The notes under the pieces: model-generated
What the model was told of the DNA's origin: nothing
Database searches by the model: none
The model's input: only the letters and a program-made list of their open reading frames with translations
NCBI RefSeq assembly: GCF_010537335.1
Contig: NZ_AP019711.1
Span: 744,001 to 808,000 of the forward strand
DNA: 64,000 bases
Direction of reading: 5' to 3'
Source: Amedibacterium intestinale
GTDB lineage: Bacteria; Bacillota_I; Bacilli_A; Erysipelotrichales; Erysipelotrichaceae
Program-made: the position numbers and the translations under genes
Shown here: positions 893 to 13,145 of the stretch, in pieces
Numbering within the stretch: position 1 is the stretch's first letter
How the letters are laid out: each line of letters begins with the position of its first letter

Positions 893-2065
893 TTAAACTT
901 TTTCAATGAGTTTATTAAAACGCATATTAACAAATATTGCCAAAATAACACCCAAACCTGTAATAACGATATTCAATATCACAACACCTAAAGGACCACT
1001 TCCAGCACTTACTACAGAAGCTAAAGATAAGATTAGATAATTCGCTAAAGAAGAAGCAATCATAATAATACTTGTGATCGTTCCTTTGATTTGCGGGAAT
1101 AAGTCATTTACAGTTGCGGTTGCAAGCTGCAGCACTCCTCCAGCTGCAAAAAATCCCATTAAGAATCCTACGACTTGACACATAAGAGGTGTTTGTACAA
1201 AATACACTGCAACTAATGATAATAATGCACATAATGGATAGACTGCAAGAAAGCGTACCTGCTTGATCTTTTTAACTAAGACTGCAGTAAGCAATACAGC
1301 TAAAATTGTACCTGTAGCATAGTATGTCTGAATGGTTTGCGGATTTGTCATTCCAGCCATTTTTCCCAATTCCTGATTACAGTTTAACCATAACTGGAAA
1401 GTTGATGTACAAGTGAACCCAATCAAGATCAATGCAATGCTTTCTGGAGTAAATTTAGCGTGTTTTAATTTTTCAAAGAAACCTTCTTCTTTTCCTTCTT
1501 CTTTTTCATCTTTTGGAAGTGGAAGTTTTACAACAAGCACACCGATAATCGCAATGCATACAGCCATCAAAATAAACAAAGTTCTAAATGACATATTGTT
1601 GTCCGCAACAAATAAAATCATATATGGCAGCACAAGCTGTCCCAAAGAAATTCCTAATTTCGTACACAAAGTAGCTAGTCCGCTGTTTGGCTTTAAAATT
1701 TCAACACAAGCAGGAATAACCCCTGTATCTAAGAATGAGTTTGCAGCTCCTCCAATGATTGCGGCAATATATGCCAAATACATATTTGGTGCATAAACAA
1801 CTCCTACAAAATATACTGCATAAGATAGGATTCCTATAAGAGTTGATATTCTTCTTCCCAGCTTATCGGATAAAGGACCAGAGAAAGGAAGTGTAATCAA
1901 ACGTCCCAGCCCCATTGCGGCAATTACTAATAAAACCTGTTCTGCACTACAGTTCCACTGAATTGCTAAATCTGCTTTATATTGGCTTAGAATGGATGCC
2001 CCAATCCCATGGATAAAAAAGTTTAAATATAATATAAATGCACTTGGATAATATTTTTTATTCAT
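893..2065 (-). CDS. MFS transporter
   Basis: A 390-residue major facilitator with about 12 hydrophobic segments. The loop 2-3 motif GPLSDKLGRR is at residues 63-72, and a charged central loop (about 188-200) separates the two six-helix halves. The start is set by GGAG 9 nt upstream of the ATG. The position between the dehydrogenase-like gene and the TRAP genes suggests uptake or exchange of the same hydroaromatic acids, or export of their products. A hairpin terminator separates it from the dehydrogenase gene, so it may be expressed at a lower level or from its own promoter. The substrate cannot be read from the sequence. Confidence 0.82.
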   Translation of the reverse strand: MNKKYYPSAFILYLNFFIHGIGASILSQYKADLAIQWNCSAEQVLLVIAAMGLGRLITLPFSGPLSDKLGRRISTLIGILSYAVYFVGVVYAPNMYLAYIAAIIGGAANSFLDTGVIPACVEILKPNSGLATLCTKLGISLGQLVLPYMILFVADNNMSFRTLFILMAVCIAIIGVLVVKLPLPKDEKEEGKEEGFFEKLKHAKFTPESIALILIGFTCTSTFQLWLNCNQELGKMAGMTNPQTIQTYYATGTILAVLLTAVLVKKIKQVRFLAVYPLCALLSLVAVYFVQTPLMCQVVGFLMGFFAAGGVLQLATATVNDLFPQIKGTITSIIMIASSLANYLILSLASVVSAGSGPLGVVILNIVITGLGVILAIFVNMRFNKLIEKV

Positions 2066-2097
2066 TTTTATGTTCTCCTATATCTTTCCATCTCACT

Positions 2098-2136
2098 TTA
2101 AAAAATAGCTGTGTCAAAACAGTGTTCAACACAGCT
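2098..2136 (-). terminator. Intercistronic terminator hairpin
   Basis: The arms AGCTGTGT (2107-2114) and ACACAGCT (2129-2136) pair; on the minus strand a run of Ts follows. It lies between the dehydrogenase-like gene and the MFS gene, so it should reduce read-through into the transporters. Confidence 0.7.
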
Positions 2137-2146
2137 TTCCTCTACG

Positions 2147-3019
2147 TTAATCCTCAATATGTAAAATTTCTTTCATGTATGCAATTGGCATATCTTCTCC
2201 TGTCCACATTTTAAATGCAGCAGCACCCTGGTATAACATCATACCTAATCCATTCATACATGGACAGCCAACTTCTTCCGCAACTTCTAAAAGTTTCGTC
2301 TTTGTAGGCATATATACAACATCTGTTACGATCAAGTTTGGACGAAGATAACTTGCATCAGGAATTACCATCTGTCCTTCCAATGGTTTCATACCTACAC
2401 CAGTTGCATTCGCAAACAGATAGCTGTCTGCGATTTCACGACGTAATGCTTCTTTGTCATCCAAATCAAATAATGTTGCCTTACAGTTTGTTTTTTCATT
2501 GATATTTTTTACATTTTGTACAGCTCTATCCCAGAATTCATCTTTGCGATTGAAAATGGAAATTTCTTTTACGCCATCTAAGGCAGCTTGGATTTCAATT
2601 GCAGTTGCAGCACCACCAGCACCGACAATTGTCATTTTCTTTCCAATGACATCAAATCCTTTATCTTTCAAAGATCTCATGTATCCAATACCATCTGTAA
2701 TATTGCCAGTCAACACGCCATTGTCATTTACGACTGTATTTACTGCACCGCACAATTCTGCTGCAGGAGATAATTTATCTAAATACTTTCCAATAACGGT
2801 TTTGTTTGGCATAGATACATTATATCCACGTACTCCCAATGCCTTAAATCCTTTTACTGCATCTTCCAGCTGTTCTGTACCAACCTCAAATGCAAGGTAA
2901 GCATAATCCAAACCAAGTTTCGCAAATGCTTCATTATGCATCGTAGGTGATTTTGAATGACGAATTGGTGTTGCGATCAATCCAATCAATTCTGTGTGTC
3001 CTGTAATTCTTTCTGCCAT
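2147..3019 (-). CDS. Shikimate/quinate dehydrogenase-family protein (AroE/YdiB-like)
   Basis: A 290-residue protein with the two-domain AroE fold. HSKSP (21-25) binds substrate, the catalytic Lys is K73 in NVSMPNK, the catalytic Asp is D109 in GNITDG, and a GAGGAA nucleotide-binding turn sits at 133-138. The C-terminal MNGLGMMLYQG helix is also present. The family interconverts shikimate and 3-dehydroshikimate, or quinate and 3-dehydroquinate in YdiB. A second AroE domain fused to AroK lies 3.5 kb away in an anabolic unit, so this copy is more likely catabolic. Its promoter block resembles that of the adjacent oxidoreductase, and a LysR gene is divergent. Confidence 0.88.
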   Translation of the reverse strand: MAERITGHTELIGLIATPIRHSKSPTMHNEAFAKLGLDYAYLAFEVGTEQLEDAVKGFKALGVRGYNVSMPNKTVIGKYLDKLSPAAELCGAVNTVVNDNGVLTGNITDGIGYMRSLKDKGFDVIGKKMTIVGAGGAATAIEIQAALDGVKEISIFNRKDEFWDRAVQNVKNINEKTNCKATLFDLDDKEALRREIADSYLFANATGVGMKPLEGQMVIPDASYLRPNLIVTDVVYMPTKTKLLEVAEEVGCPCMNGLGMMLYQGAAAFKMWTGEDMPIAYMKEILHIED

Positions 3020-3062
3020 AATCTATTCCTCCTATATTCTAGATTTTTTATAAAGGACTGAT

Positions 3063-3120
3063 GAATGTTATCACATTCACAAGTAACATTATTATAATTG
3101 ATATAATTCTATAAAAACAA
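3063..3120 (-). promoter_or_regulatory. Promoter and inverted repeat upstream of the AroE-like gene
   Basis: Reading leftward: -35 TTGTTT (3120-3115), an 18-nt spacer, -10 TATAAT (3096-3091), then an inverted repeat GAATG-N6-CATTC (3063-3078) in the leader. The same arrangement, with the same -35, spacer and -10, precedes the oxidoreductase gene at 5217-5279. A shared regulator, plausibly the divergent LysR protein, is inferred. Confidence 0.6.
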
Positions 3121-3167
3121 TTAAGTTTATTCATCTTTTCTATAGAATTCTTCTATGAATTAATTTT

Positions 3168-3207
3168 TTGATAAGATGCCCCGATATGGGCATCTTATCA
3201 ATTTTTT
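3168..3207 (+). terminator. 14-bp hairpin with T-run on the plus strand
   Basis: Perfect arms TTGATAAGATGCCC (3168-3181) and GGGCATCTTATCAA (3188-3201) are followed by six Ts on the plus strand. It directly abuts the stop of the leftward oxidoreductase gene. For that gene it is a stem without a following T-run, so the textbook terminator orientation is plus. Confidence 0.6.
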
Positions 3208-5200
3208 ACATAAATTCTTTACGTTTTAAAATATTAATGATATTTCGTCCTTCACTAACCCCATCAATGATACGGCGAGCTCTTACACTGTCACCAATAT
3301 TGATGATTTCTACATCTTCCTGTGCAAAAGCCTCTTCAATTTCAGATAGATGAGGTGCATAAGAACGCATTCCAAGGCATACAAAACCATAGTCAAAATC
3401 TAAACGTTCTATGTTCTCTGCACGTTTTACCATGAAATATGTATCTCCAACTTCCTGCAAAGCTGTTTCCGTTAATACATTTACATGATGTTTTTCCAGC
3501 ATATCATAAGTTCCAATTTTTGTGACGACATCCAAATCTTTTCCAACAACCGGCTGCATTTCTACAATACTTACCTCTGCATTTCGATTTGCGAAAAATT
3601 CTACCACATCAAGTCCAACAGCGCCACCGCCTACAACTACGACTTTTTTACCTGTGCAGTCTTCTGGATAAGAATCAATGTGTGAAATCATTCCTAAAAT
3701 ACCTTTTACTTTTGTTTCATCTTTATCAATATTTTCCTTTAACCCCTTAATTGGCGGTAATAAAGGTGTAGACCCACTTGCATTTATAATAATATCAGGT
3801 TTTAACATACGCAGCAGTTTTACATTGGCCTGCGTTTCTGTTAGGGCAATTAGATTTCGAAGTTTTTCTGCACGATGAATTAAATATGCAGGGAAATCAT
3901 GCAGACGTTTCTTTTCTGGAATCTTAGAAATTGCGACACTTAATCCACCAAGTTCCTTTTCTTTTTCAATCAAGAAAGTCGTACATCCAACTTCTGCTGC
4001 AGTACATGCTGCTTCCAAACCTGCACTGCCTCCACCGATAACAACCACATTGCATGGTTTCTTTATATTTTTTTCTTTATATCCATCTCCAATATTAACA
4101 CTTGGATTTACCGTACAGCGAATTGGACGATTTAAGCCAATACGATGTCCACTGCATCCAATATTACAGGAAATACATTTACGAATTTCATCTTCTTTTC
4201 CATATTTCGCTTTGTTTGGCCAATTAGGATCCGCAATCAGCTGTCTACCCAAACCTACAAAATCTGCATCTTCACTTTCAAGAATTTCTTCCGCAACTTT
4301 AGGATCTCGGATATTTCCGCAAGTAATGACAGGTTTATTGAATTTTTCTCTTATTGCCTTTGCCAGATAAGATTTCCAGCCATCTTTTAAGTAGTTTGCA
4401 TCAATCTGGTAATGAATAGAATCTACCAAACCTGCCGATACATCAAGAATATCCACTTCTTCCTGGAAATACGTCAATAGTTCCAATGTATCCTCTAGTG
4501 TATTTCCACCTTTCAAAAATTCATCTGCAGAAATTCTAACCAAGATAGGAAACATTGGTCCTACCTGTTTACGTACTTCTTCAATAACCAGTTTAGCAAA
4601 GCGTGCACGATTTTGTGCACTTCCACCAAATTCATCCTCACGATTATTGGTTAGCGGCGATAAAAACTGTGAAATCAAATAAGAATGTCCTGCGTGAATT
4701 TCAACAGCATCAAATCCGATGATTTGTGCACGTTTTGCAGCTTTTCCATATTTTTTTACGATTTCATAAATTTCTTCCGTTTTTAAAGGACGTGGTGTTT
4801 TTCCTCCTTTTTTATTTGGAAGATTTCCAGCGGAAACCGGCTGCATACCAATACGTTCTTCTAATGCACTGGCTCCGGCATGATTTAACTGAATCGCAAT
4901 TTTTGTACCATGTTTATGCACTTCTTCACACAATTTGTATAATCTAGGCATGTAGTTGTCATGATCGATTCTCAATTGTGTTGTCCCATTGGAACCGCCT
5001 GGATAGTCCACACAAGCATTTTCTACGATCAAAAGACCAGCTCCACCCATAGCTCGCTGTTCATAGTAGTCGATATGAAGAAAACTCATTTCCCCATTTT
5101 GTTCACCAAAGTTTGTTCCCATCGGTGTCATTACGACACGATTTGGAATCGTTACATTTTTTACGGTAATTGGCGAAAATAACTTTTTATACTTATTCAT
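3206..5200 (-). CDS. NADH:flavin oxidoreductase, old-yellow-enzyme/enoate reductase type
   Basis: A 664-residue enzyme of the 2,4-dienoyl-CoA reductase/BaiCD architecture. It has an N-terminal FMN TIM barrel (to about 340), then a 4Fe-4S cysteine cluster (CISCNIGC plus a downstream RCTVNP cysteine), then FAD- and NAD(P)-binding halves with GGGSAGLEAA and VVVVGGGAVGLD turns. Such enzymes reduce activated C=C bonds in the cytosol. The start was placed at the Met preceded by GAGGAGG, not at the upstream Met. As first gene of a LysR-linked locus next to a quinate/shikimate dehydrogenase-like enzyme, it may reduce a hydroaromatic acid such as dehydroshikimate or a derivative (inference). Confidence 0.9.
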   Translation of the reverse strand: MNKYKKLFSPITVKNVTIPNRVVMTPMGTNFGEQNGEMSFLHIDYYEQRAMGGAGLLIVENACVDYPGGSNGTTQLRIDHDNYMPRLYKLCEEVHKHGTKIAIQLNHAGASALEERIGMQPVSAGNLPNKKGGKTPRPLKTEEIYEIVKKYGKAAKRAQIIGFDAVEIHAGHSYLISQFLSPLTNNREDEFGGSAQNRARFAKLVIEEVRKQVGPMFPILVRISADEFLKGGNTLEDTLELLTYFQEEVDILDVSAGLVDSIHYQIDANYLKDGWKSYLAKAIREKFNKPVITCGNIRDPKVAEEILESEDADFVGLGRQLIADPNWPNKAKYGKEDEIRKCISCNIGCSGHRIGLNRPIRCTVNPSVNIGDGYKEKNIKKPCNVVVIGGGSAGLEAACTAAEVGCTTFLIEKEKELGGLSVAISKIPEKKRLHDFPAYLIHRAEKLRNLIALTETQANVKLLRMLKPDIIINASGSTPLLPPIKGLKENIDKDETKVKGILGMISHIDSYPEDCTGKKVVVVGGGAVGLDVVEFFANRNAEVSIVEMQPVVGKDLDVVTKIGTYDMLEKHHVNVLTETALQEVGDTYFMVKRAENIERLDFDYGFVCLGMRSYAPHLSEIEEAFAQEDVEIINIGDSVRARRIIDGVSEGRNIINILKRKEFM

Positions 5201-5216
5201 CTTTTCCTCCTCAAAT

Positions 5217-5279
5217 GAATGATATTTCATTCACAAGTTAACCGTAATTATTATAATCGTTACAATTACACAAAAACAA
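5217..5279 (-). promoter_or_regulatory. Promoter and inverted repeat upstream of the oxidoreductase
   Basis: -35 TTGTTT (5279-5274), an 18-nt spacer, -10 TATAAT (5255-5250), then GAATG-N6-CATTC (5217-5232) just before the ribosome site. It is a diverged copy of the block at 3063-3120. It lies in the divergent interval with the LysR gene, where LysR regulators usually bind. Confidence 0.6.
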
Positions 5280-5375: not shown

Positions 5376-6272
5376 ATGAATTTAAACTATTTATATTATT
5401 TTAAAGTCCTTGCGGAAACGGAACACTATACACATGCGGCAACCCTTTTAAAGATTACACAGCCTTCCCTTTCACATGCGATACATTGTTTAGAAGAAGA
5501 GTTAAATGCTTATTTATTTGGAAAACAAGGTCGCAATATCAAACTTACAAAGTATGGGAAAATCTTTTATAATTATATCAATGAAGGACTTCTGCAAATC
5601 GAAAAAGGACAAAGCGTGTTACAGTCTATAACTTCTCCAAAAAACGGACAAATTGATTTAGGGTTTATTTATACTTTAGGAGCACGATTTGTTCCTCAGT
5701 TATTAAAAAGCTTTTTATCCATAGAAGAAAACAAAAATGTCCATTTTTCTTTAAATCAAGGTACGACATCACAGCTGATTCAAGGGCTAAAAGAAGAAAA
5801 GTATGACATTGTTCTTTGTTCGCATGTACATAACGAAAAAGAAATCCACTTTCTTCCTGTCGTAAAAGAAAACCTTGTTGTCATTGTCCCAAACAACCAT
5901 CCATATGCCAATCGAAAAGAAATTGATTTATCTCTTCTAAAAGAAGAAAAATTTGTATATTACTCAAAAAGCAGTGGAATTCGCCCCTTATTAGATTCCT
6001 TATTTGAAAAGGTAAATATAGAACCGCATATTGCCTGTGAGGTAGAAGAAGACAGTGCTGTCATGGGGCTGGTAGGTATCAATTATGGCATTGCCATCGT
6101 TCCCGATATTCCTTTAATCGATACTTTCCCTATACATAAATTAAAAATTATAAATCCCTCTTATGAGCGCTACATATATCTGGCAACTATGAAAAATCGC
6201 TATCTTCCCCCTGCTGTTCATACGTTTTGTAATTTTTTGATTCAAAATGCAACTGTAAATAATATAGAATAG
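5376..6272 (+). CDS. LysR-family transcriptional regulator
   Basis: A 298-residue regulator. The N-terminal winged helix-turn-helix spans about residues 1-60 (TQPSLSHAI recognition helix region), a linker helix follows to about 85, and then comes the two-lobed effector domain starting near GQIDLGFIYTLG. It is transcribed divergently from the oxidoreductase gene with a 175-nt shared interval, the standard layout for a LysR activator of the adjacent operon. GGAGG sits close upstream of the ATG. The effector is unknown; a hydroaromatic acid imported by the neighbouring transporters is the natural guess. Confidence 0.92.
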   Translation: MNLNYLYYFKVLAETEHYTHAATLLKITQPSLSHAIHCLEEELNAYLFGKQGRNIKLTKYGKIFYNYINEGLLQIEKGQSVLQSITSPKNGQIDLGFIYTLGARFVPQLLKSFLSIEENKNVHFSLNQGTTSQLIQGLKEEKYDIVLCSHVHNEKEIHFLPVVKENLVVIVPNNHPYANRKEIDLSLLKEEKFVYYSKSSGIRPLLDSLFEKVNIEPHIACEVEEDSAVMGLVGINYGIAIVPDIPLIDTFPIHKLKIINPSYERYIYLATMKNRYLPPAVHTFCNFLIQNATVNNIE

Positions 6273-6316: not shown

Positions 6317-6345
6317 TTGTTTTTCTTCCTCTATATGACTATAAT
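6317..6345 (+). promoter_or_regulatory. Promoter of the aro leader
   Basis: TTGTTT (6317-6322), a 17-nt spacer and TATAAT (6340-6345). The expected start point near 6352 leaves only about 15 nt before the leader-peptide ATG, as in classical attenuators. Confidence 0.72.
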
Positions 6346-6366
6346 ATAGTTACAGGAGTGATATTC

Positions 6367-6423
6367 ATGCAAAACAAAGCTTTCTTAACTACACGATTTT
6401 ATTATGTCTTTCGTAAACTCTGA
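6367..6423 (+). CDS. Phe/Tyr-rich leader peptide of the aro operon
   Basis: An 18-codon ORF, MQNKAFLTTRFYYVFRKL, with AGGAG (6354-6358) 8 nt before the ATG. Five of the 18 residues are Phe or Tyr, four of them clustered as FYYVF. The last two codons and the stop lie inside the 5' arm of a terminator (6415-6467). A ribosome stalled at the aromatic codons would sit next to the hairpin. One finishing at the stop would cover the 5' arm, so the exact switching logic needs a competing structure I could not assign. The downstream genes make chorismate precursors, so regulation by Phe-tRNA or Tyr-tRNA charging fits. Confidence 0.75.
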   Translation: MQNKAFLTTRFYYVFRKL

Positions 6424-6467
6424 AAATGCAGTCATATAAAATAATAGACTGTTTTTTCAGAGTTTTT
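6415..6467 (+). terminator. Attenuator terminator in the aro leader
   Basis: Twelve base pairs AAACTCTGAAAA (6415-6426) with TTTTCAGAGTTT (6454-6465), then a two-base internal loop and CAGTC/GACTG, around a 13-nt loop. Ts follow at 6463-6467. The leader peptide's stop codon is within the 5' arm. Confidence 0.78.
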
Positions 6468-6473
6468 ATAAGC

Positions 6474-6507
6474 AAGCATTCAAACATTGGTTAGGAATGC
6501 TTTTTTT
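6474..6507 (+). terminator. Second hairpin with T-run before aroE-aroK
   Basis: AAGCATTC (6474-6481) pairs with GAATGCTT (6495-6502) and a run of seven Ts begins at 6501. It lies 36 nt before the aroE-aroK start. It could be a tandem terminator or part of the alternative fold of the attenuator. Confidence 0.6.
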
Positions 6508-6542
6508 GTTTTATGAACATTGCTTTTCAGGAGGTAGAAAAT

Positions 6543-7808
6543 ATGAGATATGGTCTTATTGGAGAAAAGCTGGGACATAGCTTTTCCAAAGAAATTCATG
6601 AAAAAATTGCAGATTACACATACGATTTAATTCCATTAACTAAGCATGAGTTTCATACCTTTATGAAACAAAAAGATTTTGCGGCCATCAATGTCACGAT
6701 TCCCTATAAAAAAGATGTCATTCCCTATTTAGACGAAATGGACATGCAGGCAAAATCGATTGGGGCTGTTAATACGATTGTGAATAAGAATGGAAAATTA
6801 ATTGGACATAACACAGATTTTGATGGTTTCCTGTATATGGTTCGCCACCATAACATCCATATGAAAGATAAAAAAGTTTTGATCATCGGCAATGGCGGTG
6901 CTGCTCAGGCTGTCAAAGCGGTTGTAAAGCATGAACAGGCAAAAGAAATGATCATTGTTGATATCATAAAAACGGAAGATACGATTACCTATGATGAATG
7001 TTATGCTTTGCACAGTGATGCACAAATCATCATCAACACTTCCCCGGTTGGCATGTTTCCATCCATTGATGCCAGTCCGCTTCATCTGGAATATTTTAAA
7101 CAGTGTGAAGCACTGCTTGATGTCATATACAACCCTATTCTTACAAAACTGGCATTTGCAGCACAAGAACTAGGTATCAAACGTGTAAATGGATTAGAGA
7201 TGCTGGTTGCACAGGCAAAATATGCCGTTGAACATTTCCTGGATACAAAAATCGATGATGATATCATTGATAAAATTTACAAAGAATTGCTGATGAAGGA
7301 ATGTAACATTATCTTAATTGGCATGCCAAGTGCAGGAAAAACAACGATTGGAAAAATGCTGGAACAAAGAATGGATAAAAAGTTTATTGATTTAGATGAT
7401 GTCATTGTTGAAAAAGCAGGAATGACAATTCCTGAAATTTTTGATTTATTTGGTGAAGAAGGATTTCGACACCTGGAAACACTTGTCGCAAAAGAATTAA
7501 GTGCCATGCATAACATGATCATTGCGACTGGCGGTGGGACAATCAAAAACAAAGAAAATATGGATGCACTTCGATTAAATGGTATTATTATCTTTATTGA
7601 TCGGGATATCAACAAACTTATGACAAGTGATCCTAATCGTCCTTTATTAAAAAATGAAGATGCATTAAAGTCTTTACATAAAGAACGCTATCCGCTTTAT
7701 CAAAAATATGCAAGCATGGTTGTGATGAACAATGAAGCAATTGAACAAACCATAGAAGATGTGATACATGCCTATCAATCCATCATCTTGGAAGCTGTAG
7801 AAATATAA
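6543..7808 (+). CDS. Bifunctional shikimate dehydrogenase / shikimate kinase (AroE-AroK fusion)
   Basis: A 421-residue fusion. Residues 1-250 are AroE: HSFSKEIH substrate loop, catalytic Lys in NVTIPYKK, GHNTDFDG, NGGAAQAV nucleotide turn, NTSPVGMFP. Residues from about 257 are shikimate kinase: Walker A GMPSAGKTT, the DLDDVI motif, GEEGFRHLE and ATGGGT of the substrate site, and the lid RPLLKN. Together they catalyse dehydroshikimate to shikimate to shikimate-3-phosphate in the chorismate pathway. The ATG used has AGGAGG 8 nt upstream; an in-frame upstream ATG at 6513 lacks one. The gene is under the Phe/Tyr leader and is followed 13 nt later by DAHP synthase. Confidence 0.93.
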   Translation: MRYGLIGEKLGHSFSKEIHEKIADYTYDLIPLTKHEFHTFMKQKDFAAINVTIPYKKDVIPYLDEMDMQAKSIGAVNTIVNKNGKLIGHNTDFDGFLYMVRHHNIHMKDKKVLIIGNGGAAQAVKAVVKHEQAKEMIIVDIIKTEDTITYDECYALHSDAQIIINTSPVGMFPSIDASPLHLEYFKQCEALLDVIYNPILTKLAFAAQELGIKRVNGLEMLVAQAKYAVEHFLDTKIDDDIIDKIYKELLMKECNIILIGMPSAGKTTIGKMLEQRMDKKFIDLDDVIVEKAGMTIPEIFDLFGEEGFRHLETLVAKELSAMHNMIIATGGGTIKNKENMDALRLNGIIIFIDRDINKLMTSDPNRPLLKNEDALKSLHKERYPLYQKYASMVVMNNEAIEQTIEDVIHAYQSIILEAVEI

Positions 7809-7821
7809 GGAGATTTTGTTT

Positions 7822-8838
7822 ATGATTATTACATTAAAAAAAGACGCAAAACAGGAAGAAACAGAAAAACTGCTAAGAAGTCTTGAAAACAAAGGACTTT
7901 CTGTCAATATGATACAAGGGGATACCTTTAATGTTTTCGGTCTTGTCGGTGATACCTCAAAACTAGATGAACGGCTTATAAAAGCACACCCATTTGTAGA
8001 AAATGTACAACGAATTGCGGCACCTTATAAACTTGCGAACCGTATGTTTCATCCACAAGATACCATCATAGATGTAAATGGTATTCACATTGGCGGGAAA
8101 GAACCAATCGTTGTCATTGGAGGACCTTGCAGTGTAGAAAGTGAAGAAATGATTGAACGTATCGCATACAAAGTAAAAGAGGCAGGTGCGTGTATGCTTC
8201 GTGGTGGTGCCTACAAGCCAAGAACTTCCCCTTATGCTTTTCAAGGCATGGGAACACAAGGGATTCTCGCCATGGAAAAAGCAGGTAAAAAAACTGGACT
8301 TCCTATCGTTAGTGAACTTATGAGTGCAGATAAGCTGGATGAATTCATCGAACATGTCGATGTCATTCAAATTGGTGCTCGCAATATGCAAAACTTTGAC
8401 TTGTTAAAGGCTGTTGGAAAAACAAAGAAACCAATCCTTTTAAAAAGAGGACTTGCCAACACAATTGAAGAATGGATCATGGCAGCAGAATACATCCTGT
8501 CAGAAGGAAATCCAAATGTTATCTTCTGTGAGCGAGGCATACGAACCTTTGAACCGTATACAAGAAATACATTAGATCTTAGTGTCATTCCTATCATCAA
8601 AGAAAAAACACACCTGCCGATCATCATAGATCCAAGCCATGCCACCGGAGACTGGAAACTGGTAGAATCTGCCTCTTTGGCAGCTATCGCAGCAGGTGCA
8701 GATGGACTTATTATTGAGGTTCATGATGATCCAGAAAATGCGATGAGTGATGGTGTACAAAGTTTACTTCCAGAAAAATTTGATGCATTAGTAGAAAAAG
8801 GAAGAAAGATAGCGAAAGTCATGGGACGTTCAATTTAA
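7822..8838 (+). CDS. aroF: 3-deoxy-7-phosphoheptulonate (DAHP) synthase, AroA-beta type
   Basis: A 338-residue enzyme joining PEP and erythrose-4-phosphate, the first step of aromatic amino acid synthesis. A short ferredoxin-like regulatory domain (about 1-70) is followed by the barrel with GGPCSVES, GARNMQNFDLL and IIDPSHATG metal/substrate motifs. This N-terminal domain mediates Phe/Tyr feedback in Thermotoga-type enzymes (family knowledge). The ATG follows TAAGGAG, which overlaps the stop of aroE-aroK, so the two are translationally linked. A strong terminator follows. Together with the aromatic leader peptide, the entry step appears controlled at both RNA and enzyme level. Confidence 0.93.
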   Translation: MIITLKKDAKQEETEKLLRSLENKGLSVNMIQGDTFNVFGLVGDTSKLDERLIKAHPFVENVQRIAAPYKLANRMFHPQDTIIDVNGIHIGGKEPIVVIGGPCSVESEEMIERIAYKVKEAGACMLRGGAYKPRTSPYAFQGMGTQGILAMEKAGKKTGLPIVSELMSADKLDEFIEHVDVIQIGARNMQNFDLLKAVGKTKKPILLKRGLANTIEEWIMAAEYILSEGNPNVIFCERGIRTFEPYTRNTLDLSVIPIIKEKTHLPIIIDPSHATGDWKLVESASLAAIAAGADGLIIEVHDDPENAMSDGVQSLLPEKFDALVEKGRKIAKVMGRSI

Positions 8839-12705: not shown

Positions 12706-12723
12706 CAAAATAAACAAATGGTA

Positions 12724-12806
12724 TGTCCCTACGTTGGCATTATCCAAATCAGGTATATGGGTCGAAGGTCATACCTTCCTCTCAGCCTGTCATACAAGCT
12801 CCCCGA
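12724..12806 (-). promoter_or_regulatory. TPP riboswitch (THI element)
   Basis: Read on the minus strand, the aptamer core appears in order: CGGGG, CTGAGA, GACCC, CCTGAT, GGATAATGCCAACG, TAGGGA. These are the conserved bulge and junction bases of the TPP aptamer. It lies directly upstream of thiM and should turn the salvage operon off when TPP is high. Confidence 0.95.
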
Positions 12807-12812
12807 TGTATT

Positions 12813-13145
12813 TTATATTACAAATAAAGTATATCCCTCATAAAATTCAATGTCAATGAATTTTGTCTCAGTTATATACAAGAAGTATGGATTTTTAAAG
12901 CTTTCAATATATTGCTTTCTTTCCAGACGTCTAACAATTCCAGCATTTACCGATTGTGCAAGATCTAATTCTTTTTCTAATTGTTTTAAGGTCAATCGTT
13001 TTTCTAGATATTTCGGTAAAATAGATAAAGCTCTAGCTTGCGACATCGTAAGTCCGCTATCATTGATCTTATTGTTGAAATACTTCTCTGAAATATTCTG
13101 TATTTCTTTTACCAATATACTACATGGTTCTTTTTTAGCCATCAT
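12813..13145 (-). CDS. Short MarR-like regulator, probably C-terminally truncated
   Basis: A 110-residue protein with a MarR winged-helix pattern: the SQARALSILPKYLE helix, TLKQLEKELDLAQSVNAGIVRRLERKQYI as recognition helix and wing. MarR proteins are usually about 140-150 residues; this one stops soon after the wing and lacks the C-terminal dimer helices. A 38-nt stretch near its 3' end recurs with one mismatch at 19558-19595 in mobile-element debris. Two adjacent in-frame ATGs open the gene. Its stop lies a few bases from the TPP aptamer. It may be a degraded gene or a compact regulator. Confidence 0.6.
   Translation of the reverse strand: MMAKKEPCSILVKEIQNISEKYFNNKINDSGLTMSQARALSILPKYLEKRLTLKQLEKELDLAQSVNAGIVRRLERKQYIESFKNPYFLYITETKFIDIEFYEGYTLFVI

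Follow-up and report, generated by a model that had tools for sequence, protein, structure and literature searches.

The pheL-pheA attenuator of Escherichia coli, which shares a Phe-rich leader peptide and a terminator with the locus described here, is specific to Phe, precedes the terminal branch gene pheA and works through a classical antiterminator. As far as it is described in PMC4046766 and in the accounts of Neshat et al. (2014) given by PMC11802643 and PMC7356990, the AroR leader (Phe-Tyr-Phe) ahead of aroF in Corynebacterium glutamicum responds to Phe limitation, and Tyr availability is without effect. Some small ORFs of C. glutamicum are leaderless (PMC4046766). To the extent that these sources portray AroR, our locus resembles it in the presence of a Phe-Tyr-Phe leader ahead of a DAHP synthase gene. 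It differs in that AroR belongs to an actinobacterium, in its two separate hairpins (HP1 and T2), in the additional control of aroB and of an aroE-aroK fusion (aroEK), and in Tyr codons that are at least as frequent as Phe codons. The uORFC-13-1 motif of Acholeplasma aroF (24 representatives, restricted to Acholeplasma and environmental sequence; Brewer et al. 2021, PMC8632094) also possesses a promoter, a uORF that contains one or more Phe codons, an extra paired substructure and a terminator ahead of aroF, a likeness established by comparing descriptions. His leader attenuators, predicted in Erysipelotrichales and the B. cereus group (PMC9413887), are ribosome-mediated and occur in the same order, but differ by their histidine codons, the his operon and a described alternative antiterminator. 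The ilv-leu attenuator peptide of Staphylococcus aureus contains Leu/Ile codons, with an antiterminator proposed to capture the terminator U-tail (PMC5794164), and is a further case of leader-peptide attenuation in Bacillota, where T-boxes are common. In view of these His, Phe and Leu-rich cases (PMC9413887, PMC8632094, PMC5794164), the original prediction for our locus overstated how unusual a leader peptide would be in this phylum. The literature searched, outside which most subscription journals lie, yielded no description of a Phe/Tyr leader from Erysipelotrichaceae.

The window, i.e. the whole analysed stretch of 64,000 nucleotides from Amedibacterium intestinale (contig NZ_AP019711.1, positions 744,001 to 808,000), contains at its positions 6317-6507 what is very probably a transcription attenuator read by the ribosome, with charged tRNA-Phe and tRNA-Tyr as its signals and the entry to the shikimate pathway as its target. 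All its features lie on the plus strand. The promoter (6317-6345), as read from the sequence, consists of a -35 box TTGTTT (6317-6322), a 17-nt spacer and a -10 box TATAAT (6340-6345), and its spacing recurs in relatives. The transcription start is predicted at about 6352, which would give a 5' UTR of approximately 15 nt with a Shine-Dalgarno (SD) motif AGGAG at 6354-6358 (extended form GGAGTGAT). The leader ORF (6367-6423, ATG at 6367) comprises 18 codons and encodes MQNKAFLTTRFYYVFRKL before its stop, with the FYYVF codons at 6397-6411. HP1 (6415-6465; -23.3 kcal/mol, z -8.3 against dinucleotide shuffles) carries the leader stop codon in its 5' arm and ends in a U-run at approximately 6463-6467. 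T2 follows at 6474-6507, with a stem at 6474-6502, a U-run UUUUUUU at 6501-6507 and a moderate folding signal (-10 kcal/mol, z -2.2 against dinucleotide shuffles). HP1 and T2 have no strand in common. The first regulated gene is aroEK, encoding a shikimate dehydrogenase / shikimate kinase fusion (6543-7808, SD GGAGG at 6530-6534). It is followed after 13 nt by the start of aroF (7822-8838), encoding a DAHP synthase with an N-terminal ferredoxin-like domain; both presumably form one operon. A simple promoter/terminator scan did not list the window promoter and terminators, because they fall outside its hexamer and loop limits. The promoter, the 15-nt leader, the 18-codon ORF with FYYVF and the second terminator of the original prediction are thus all present in the sequence, and the first hairpin does begin within the ORF.

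On the 5' side of the element, the window contains genes at 893-5230 (minus strand) and 5376-6272 (plus strand), among them a transporter-like gene, a second shikimate dehydrogenase, a BaiCD/FadH-like flavoenzyme and a divergent LysR gene. They may represent a cluster for shikimate/quinate uptake and use adjoining the aro operon.

Taken by itself, the window ORF is weak evidence, and its aromatic content is unremarkable (chance of at least five aromatic codons among 17 approximately 0.07, given the base composition). The arrangement recurs, however, in 45 non-redundant leaders, each with an ORF of 9-18 codons, then HP1, then T2. Among family relatives the aroEK leaders keep this order with very different peptides, e.g. 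MHTTTYETFYFYFR, MNNSRQYYYYFK, MHMILNSSYYFYF, MHVAVSFYFIFS and MKQFANSYFYFYSK. The last eight residues of the 45 leaders are 56% Phe/Tyr (25% Phe, 31% Tyr), Trp codons are absent from all 45, and UUU outnumbers UUC by 90 to 4; by sequence, these are short ORFs with clustered codons for products of the pathway.

T2 with its U-run lies between leader ORF and first gene in all 23 aroEK leaders. A U-run after HP1 was detected in only 14 of the 45 non-redundant leaders and in 1 of 19 aroB leaders, in a survey whose simple hairpin finder mis-set a few HP1/T2 boundaries. HP1 is therefore not generally a terminator: its earlier designation as the first terminator is consistent with the U-run of this species, but does not extend to most relatives. 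The two hairpins covary. In a model-aligned set of 53 sequences, 91% of the cells are paired and 18 of 19 pairs changed on both sides (0/500 shuffles), and an independent MAFFT alignment resulted in 93% paired cells and 14 of 19 pairs changed on both sides, with no shuffle equal. T2 accordingly has the properties of an intrinsic terminator, a U-run and a covarying stem. The conserved Phe/Tyr codons and compensatory stem changes that the original prediction had proposed to look for were thus found, and homologous leaders devoid of the ORF or the aromatic codons, which would have counted against it, are not among the 45. A Phe/Tyr leader peptide combined with regulation by termination is, as a prediction from sequence, strongly supported.

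When the window was withheld and a covariance model was trained on 20 relatives, the window element was still its best match in this genome (54.4 bits, E 4.8e-7), scoring roughly double the runner-up (27.9 bits). A model of 22 leaders (R1), searched against 273 genomes of the family, also detected leaders ahead of separate aroB and aroF genes, which were named by sequence likeness. The units headed by the element, aroEK, aroF and aroB, comprise early shikimate steps only. Where aroEK is internal behind aroC, the leader is not directly upstream of aroEK but further upstream, ahead of aroB. Merdibacter massiliensis and Amedibacillus dolichus are among the carriers. Matches of a refined model (R2) at E <=0.001 in 265 genomes of the order are confined to the family of the window. 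In 395 genomes of the class, where the higher-scoring of the weak matches outside the family were inspected, none of those inspected lies ahead of an aromatic gene, which also bears on the comparison with uORFC-13-1. Model matches outside the family (L253-L259, L261-L263) and three inside (L218, L230, L231) were rejected, as they are not located ahead of aromatic genes. The congener G001 possesses an aroEK (L025) that is preceded by a good promoter and a single short hairpin and not by an aromatic leader, an apparent loss of the element that counts against the attenuator reading.

The genome of the window contains a second Phe/Tyr leader ahead of aroB, on the minus strand at contig position ~2160713 (~2.16 Mb). 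It encodes MSVKRFYYNLNFSL up to its stop codon, HP1 and T2 come next, ordered as in the window, and its RFYY codons are identical to those of the window leader over 12 bases. All three covariance models missed this copy, which was found by reading the upstream region. Unlike in most relatives, the leader ORFs of both copies extend into HP1, and this probably caused the miss; absence calls in other genomes are consequently lower bounds. The motif GAGTGAT shortly 5' of an ATG occurs 45 times in the genome, and among these 45 starts the Phe/Tyr leaders are the window leader and the aroB leader only. Five near-identical ORFs of this genome (L286, L287, L289, L305, L314) start with MAMTKRNGKNDTIILNTIEELVPQDHDVRMLESCIDW or similar and all contain GAGTGATTACATATG; they are possibly copies of one transposase. 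An apparent Ile-rich leader ORF (L325) was rejected, as it lies within another gene and is read in a frame other than that of the gene.

No Rfam family (Phe_leader or other cis elements) matches the window element over threshold, and none of relevance was found at E <=10. The window leader does not contain a T-box, and 13 T-boxes over the cut-off are present elsewhere in the genome. Two of them, at contig positions 839647-839848 and 290663-290859 (L276, L277), precede genes that read as tyrS and trpS, as named from their sequence and not by family search. A TPP riboswitch (68.8 bits) is located at 12708-12815 of the window (minus strand), ahead of thiamine-like genes.

In 17 of the 45 non-redundant leaders (L006, L009, L017, L019, L022, L148, L170, L225-L227 and others) the best -10 hexamer ends 6-7 nt 5' of the ATG, and the message is therefore predicted to be leaderless. 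The remaining leaders mostly have a gap of 17-25 nt between -10 box and ATG, with an SD.

HP1 has its first G-C pair 8-17 nt (mean 10.2) downstream of the point at which the last aromatic codon begins. A ribosome covers approximately 10 nt past the first base of its A-site codon, the value assumed in our modelling. The outer stem of HP1 has a modelled probability of 0.97 with the ribosome on the first aromatic codon, 0.57 on the last one and 0.00 at the stop codon. In this model, a ribosome stalled on most of the aromatic codons would leave HP1 intact, one at the last codon would mostly abut it, and one at the stop codon would cover the outer 5' arm and open the hairpin. By its geometry, HP1 would hence behave as the antiterminator does in leaders of the trp type, free on stalling and opened at the stop. 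As a ribosome stalled on FYY would leave HP1 free, direct occlusion of the first terminator is insufficient as an explanation in this species, where HP1 has its own U-run.

From the kind of element, its gene content and the precedents above, we infer leader translation, termination, and read-through on starvation. The place of the leading ribosome on the aromatic codons would set whether HP1 forms and, through HP1, whether RNA polymerase stops at T2, in this species perhaps also at the U-run of HP1. Scarcity of charged Phe or Tyr tRNA would stall the ribosome and lead to read-through; with ample charged tRNA the ribosome would reach the stop codon, the outer stem of HP1 would be opened and T2 would terminate. 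The step from HP1 to T2 would not proceed via any conserved base pairing that we found.

How HP1 acts on T2 can be read in several ways. In a classical three-hairpin attenuator, a stalled ribosome would permit an antiterminator that excludes T2. Leader ORF, control codons and terminator are all present, and the only candidate for such an antiterminator is specific to the window species, where a long-range fold (full leader z -6.1) pairs the 5' half of the ORF with the 3' arm of T2 and would break T2; the T2 probability falls to 0 when no ribosome is placed. This fold is not generally shared by relatives. T2 remains folded in 23 leaders with any stretch of the HP1 5' arm masked, its probability is not lowered at the modelled positions of a stalled ribosome, and nascent RNA ending at the T2 loop lacks a conserved competitor. 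In an all-against-all test of cognate complementarity over 66 segment pairs only HP1 and T2 clearly stand out, with no signal between HP1 and T2 segments; HP1 also accounts for the signal of its arm with the adjoining spacer, and the test is blind to pairing of A-runs with U-runs because all leaders contain such runs. Pairing of the HP1 3' arm with the T2 5' arm was rejected as an antiterminator, being neither conserved nor stable. The classical arrangement is accordingly quite doubtful, and the earlier proposal of ribosome-mediated attenuation holds for its Phe/Tyr leader peptide and conserved terminator, but not for the word "classical". An attenuator without a competing antiterminator, in which HP1 is gated by the leader-peptide ribosome and, when folded beside RNA polymerase, itself favours read-through of the intact T2 by acting directly on the polymerase or on pausing, is a similarly doubtful proposal. 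Two further candidates were rejected: the aromatic codons as an anti-SD for aroE, at chance level (p 0.77), and a second ORF across HP1/T2 in several species, whose frame over T2 is not kept and which lacks an SD on inspection.

Control of translation or RNA stability, instead of or beside termination, would have the leader RBS locked by downstream RNA, thereby limiting each leader to one ribosome or protecting the 5' end of the read-through mRNA. Complementarity in two subgroups, both chosen post hoc after data inspection, points in this direction. In SD-type aroB leaders, the copy of the window genome included, RBS and start are complementary to the 3' half of HP1 (cognate against non-cognate, Z -5.2, 0/20000), and this pairing (L215, L217, L221, L239, L284) is an alternative to the folding of HP1. 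In SD-type aroEK leaders, the window included, cognate complementarity between RBS and post-T2 spacer exceeds non-cognate (p 0.0003; 0.003 without one close relative), and in the window the spacer segment 6505-6528 is complementary to RBS and start (6353-6379), a possible long-range helix in the read-through RNA. The latter complementarity is not significant across all leaders, the pairing partner differs between the aroB and aroEK groups, RBS accessibility over all SD-type leaders gives only a weak signal (p 0.01-0.17), such pairing is impossible in leaderless members, and the universal T2 is left unexplained. We consider this explanation unlikely; that the leader RBS closes once the termination decision has been made is suggestive only. 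Conservation of the Phe/Tyr-rich leader ORFs would also be expected of an aromatic-rich microprotein acting in trans, with the hairpins as ordinary terminators, but the peptides differ freely in length (9-18 aa) and in their residues beyond the aromatic run, while the position of the codons relative to HP1 is kept and HP1 and T2 follow the ORF throughout, which renders it very improbable. That the ORF arose by chance, in the stretch from the lysR terminators upstream to the start of aroEK, agrees with the base-composition estimate for the window ORF, but is refuted by conservation, i.e. the same arrangement ahead of aroEK, aroF and aroB in many genomes, the covariation and the leave-one-out detection, leaving it a negligible probability.

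The proposed attenuator sensing charged tRNA-Phe and tRNA-Tyr adds a Phe/Tyr regulon to a family of Bacillota that is rich in T-boxes. Its many copies, with a strongly covarying hairpin and no conserved antiterminator, raise the question of how the position of the ribosome reaches an intact terminator, and the leaderless versions, whose 5' UTR is nearly absent, represent a minimal system. The distribution in the window genome suggests that two sensors of tRNA charging are divided within one cell, T-boxes for tyrS and trpS and the leader peptide for aroB and aroEK-aroF.
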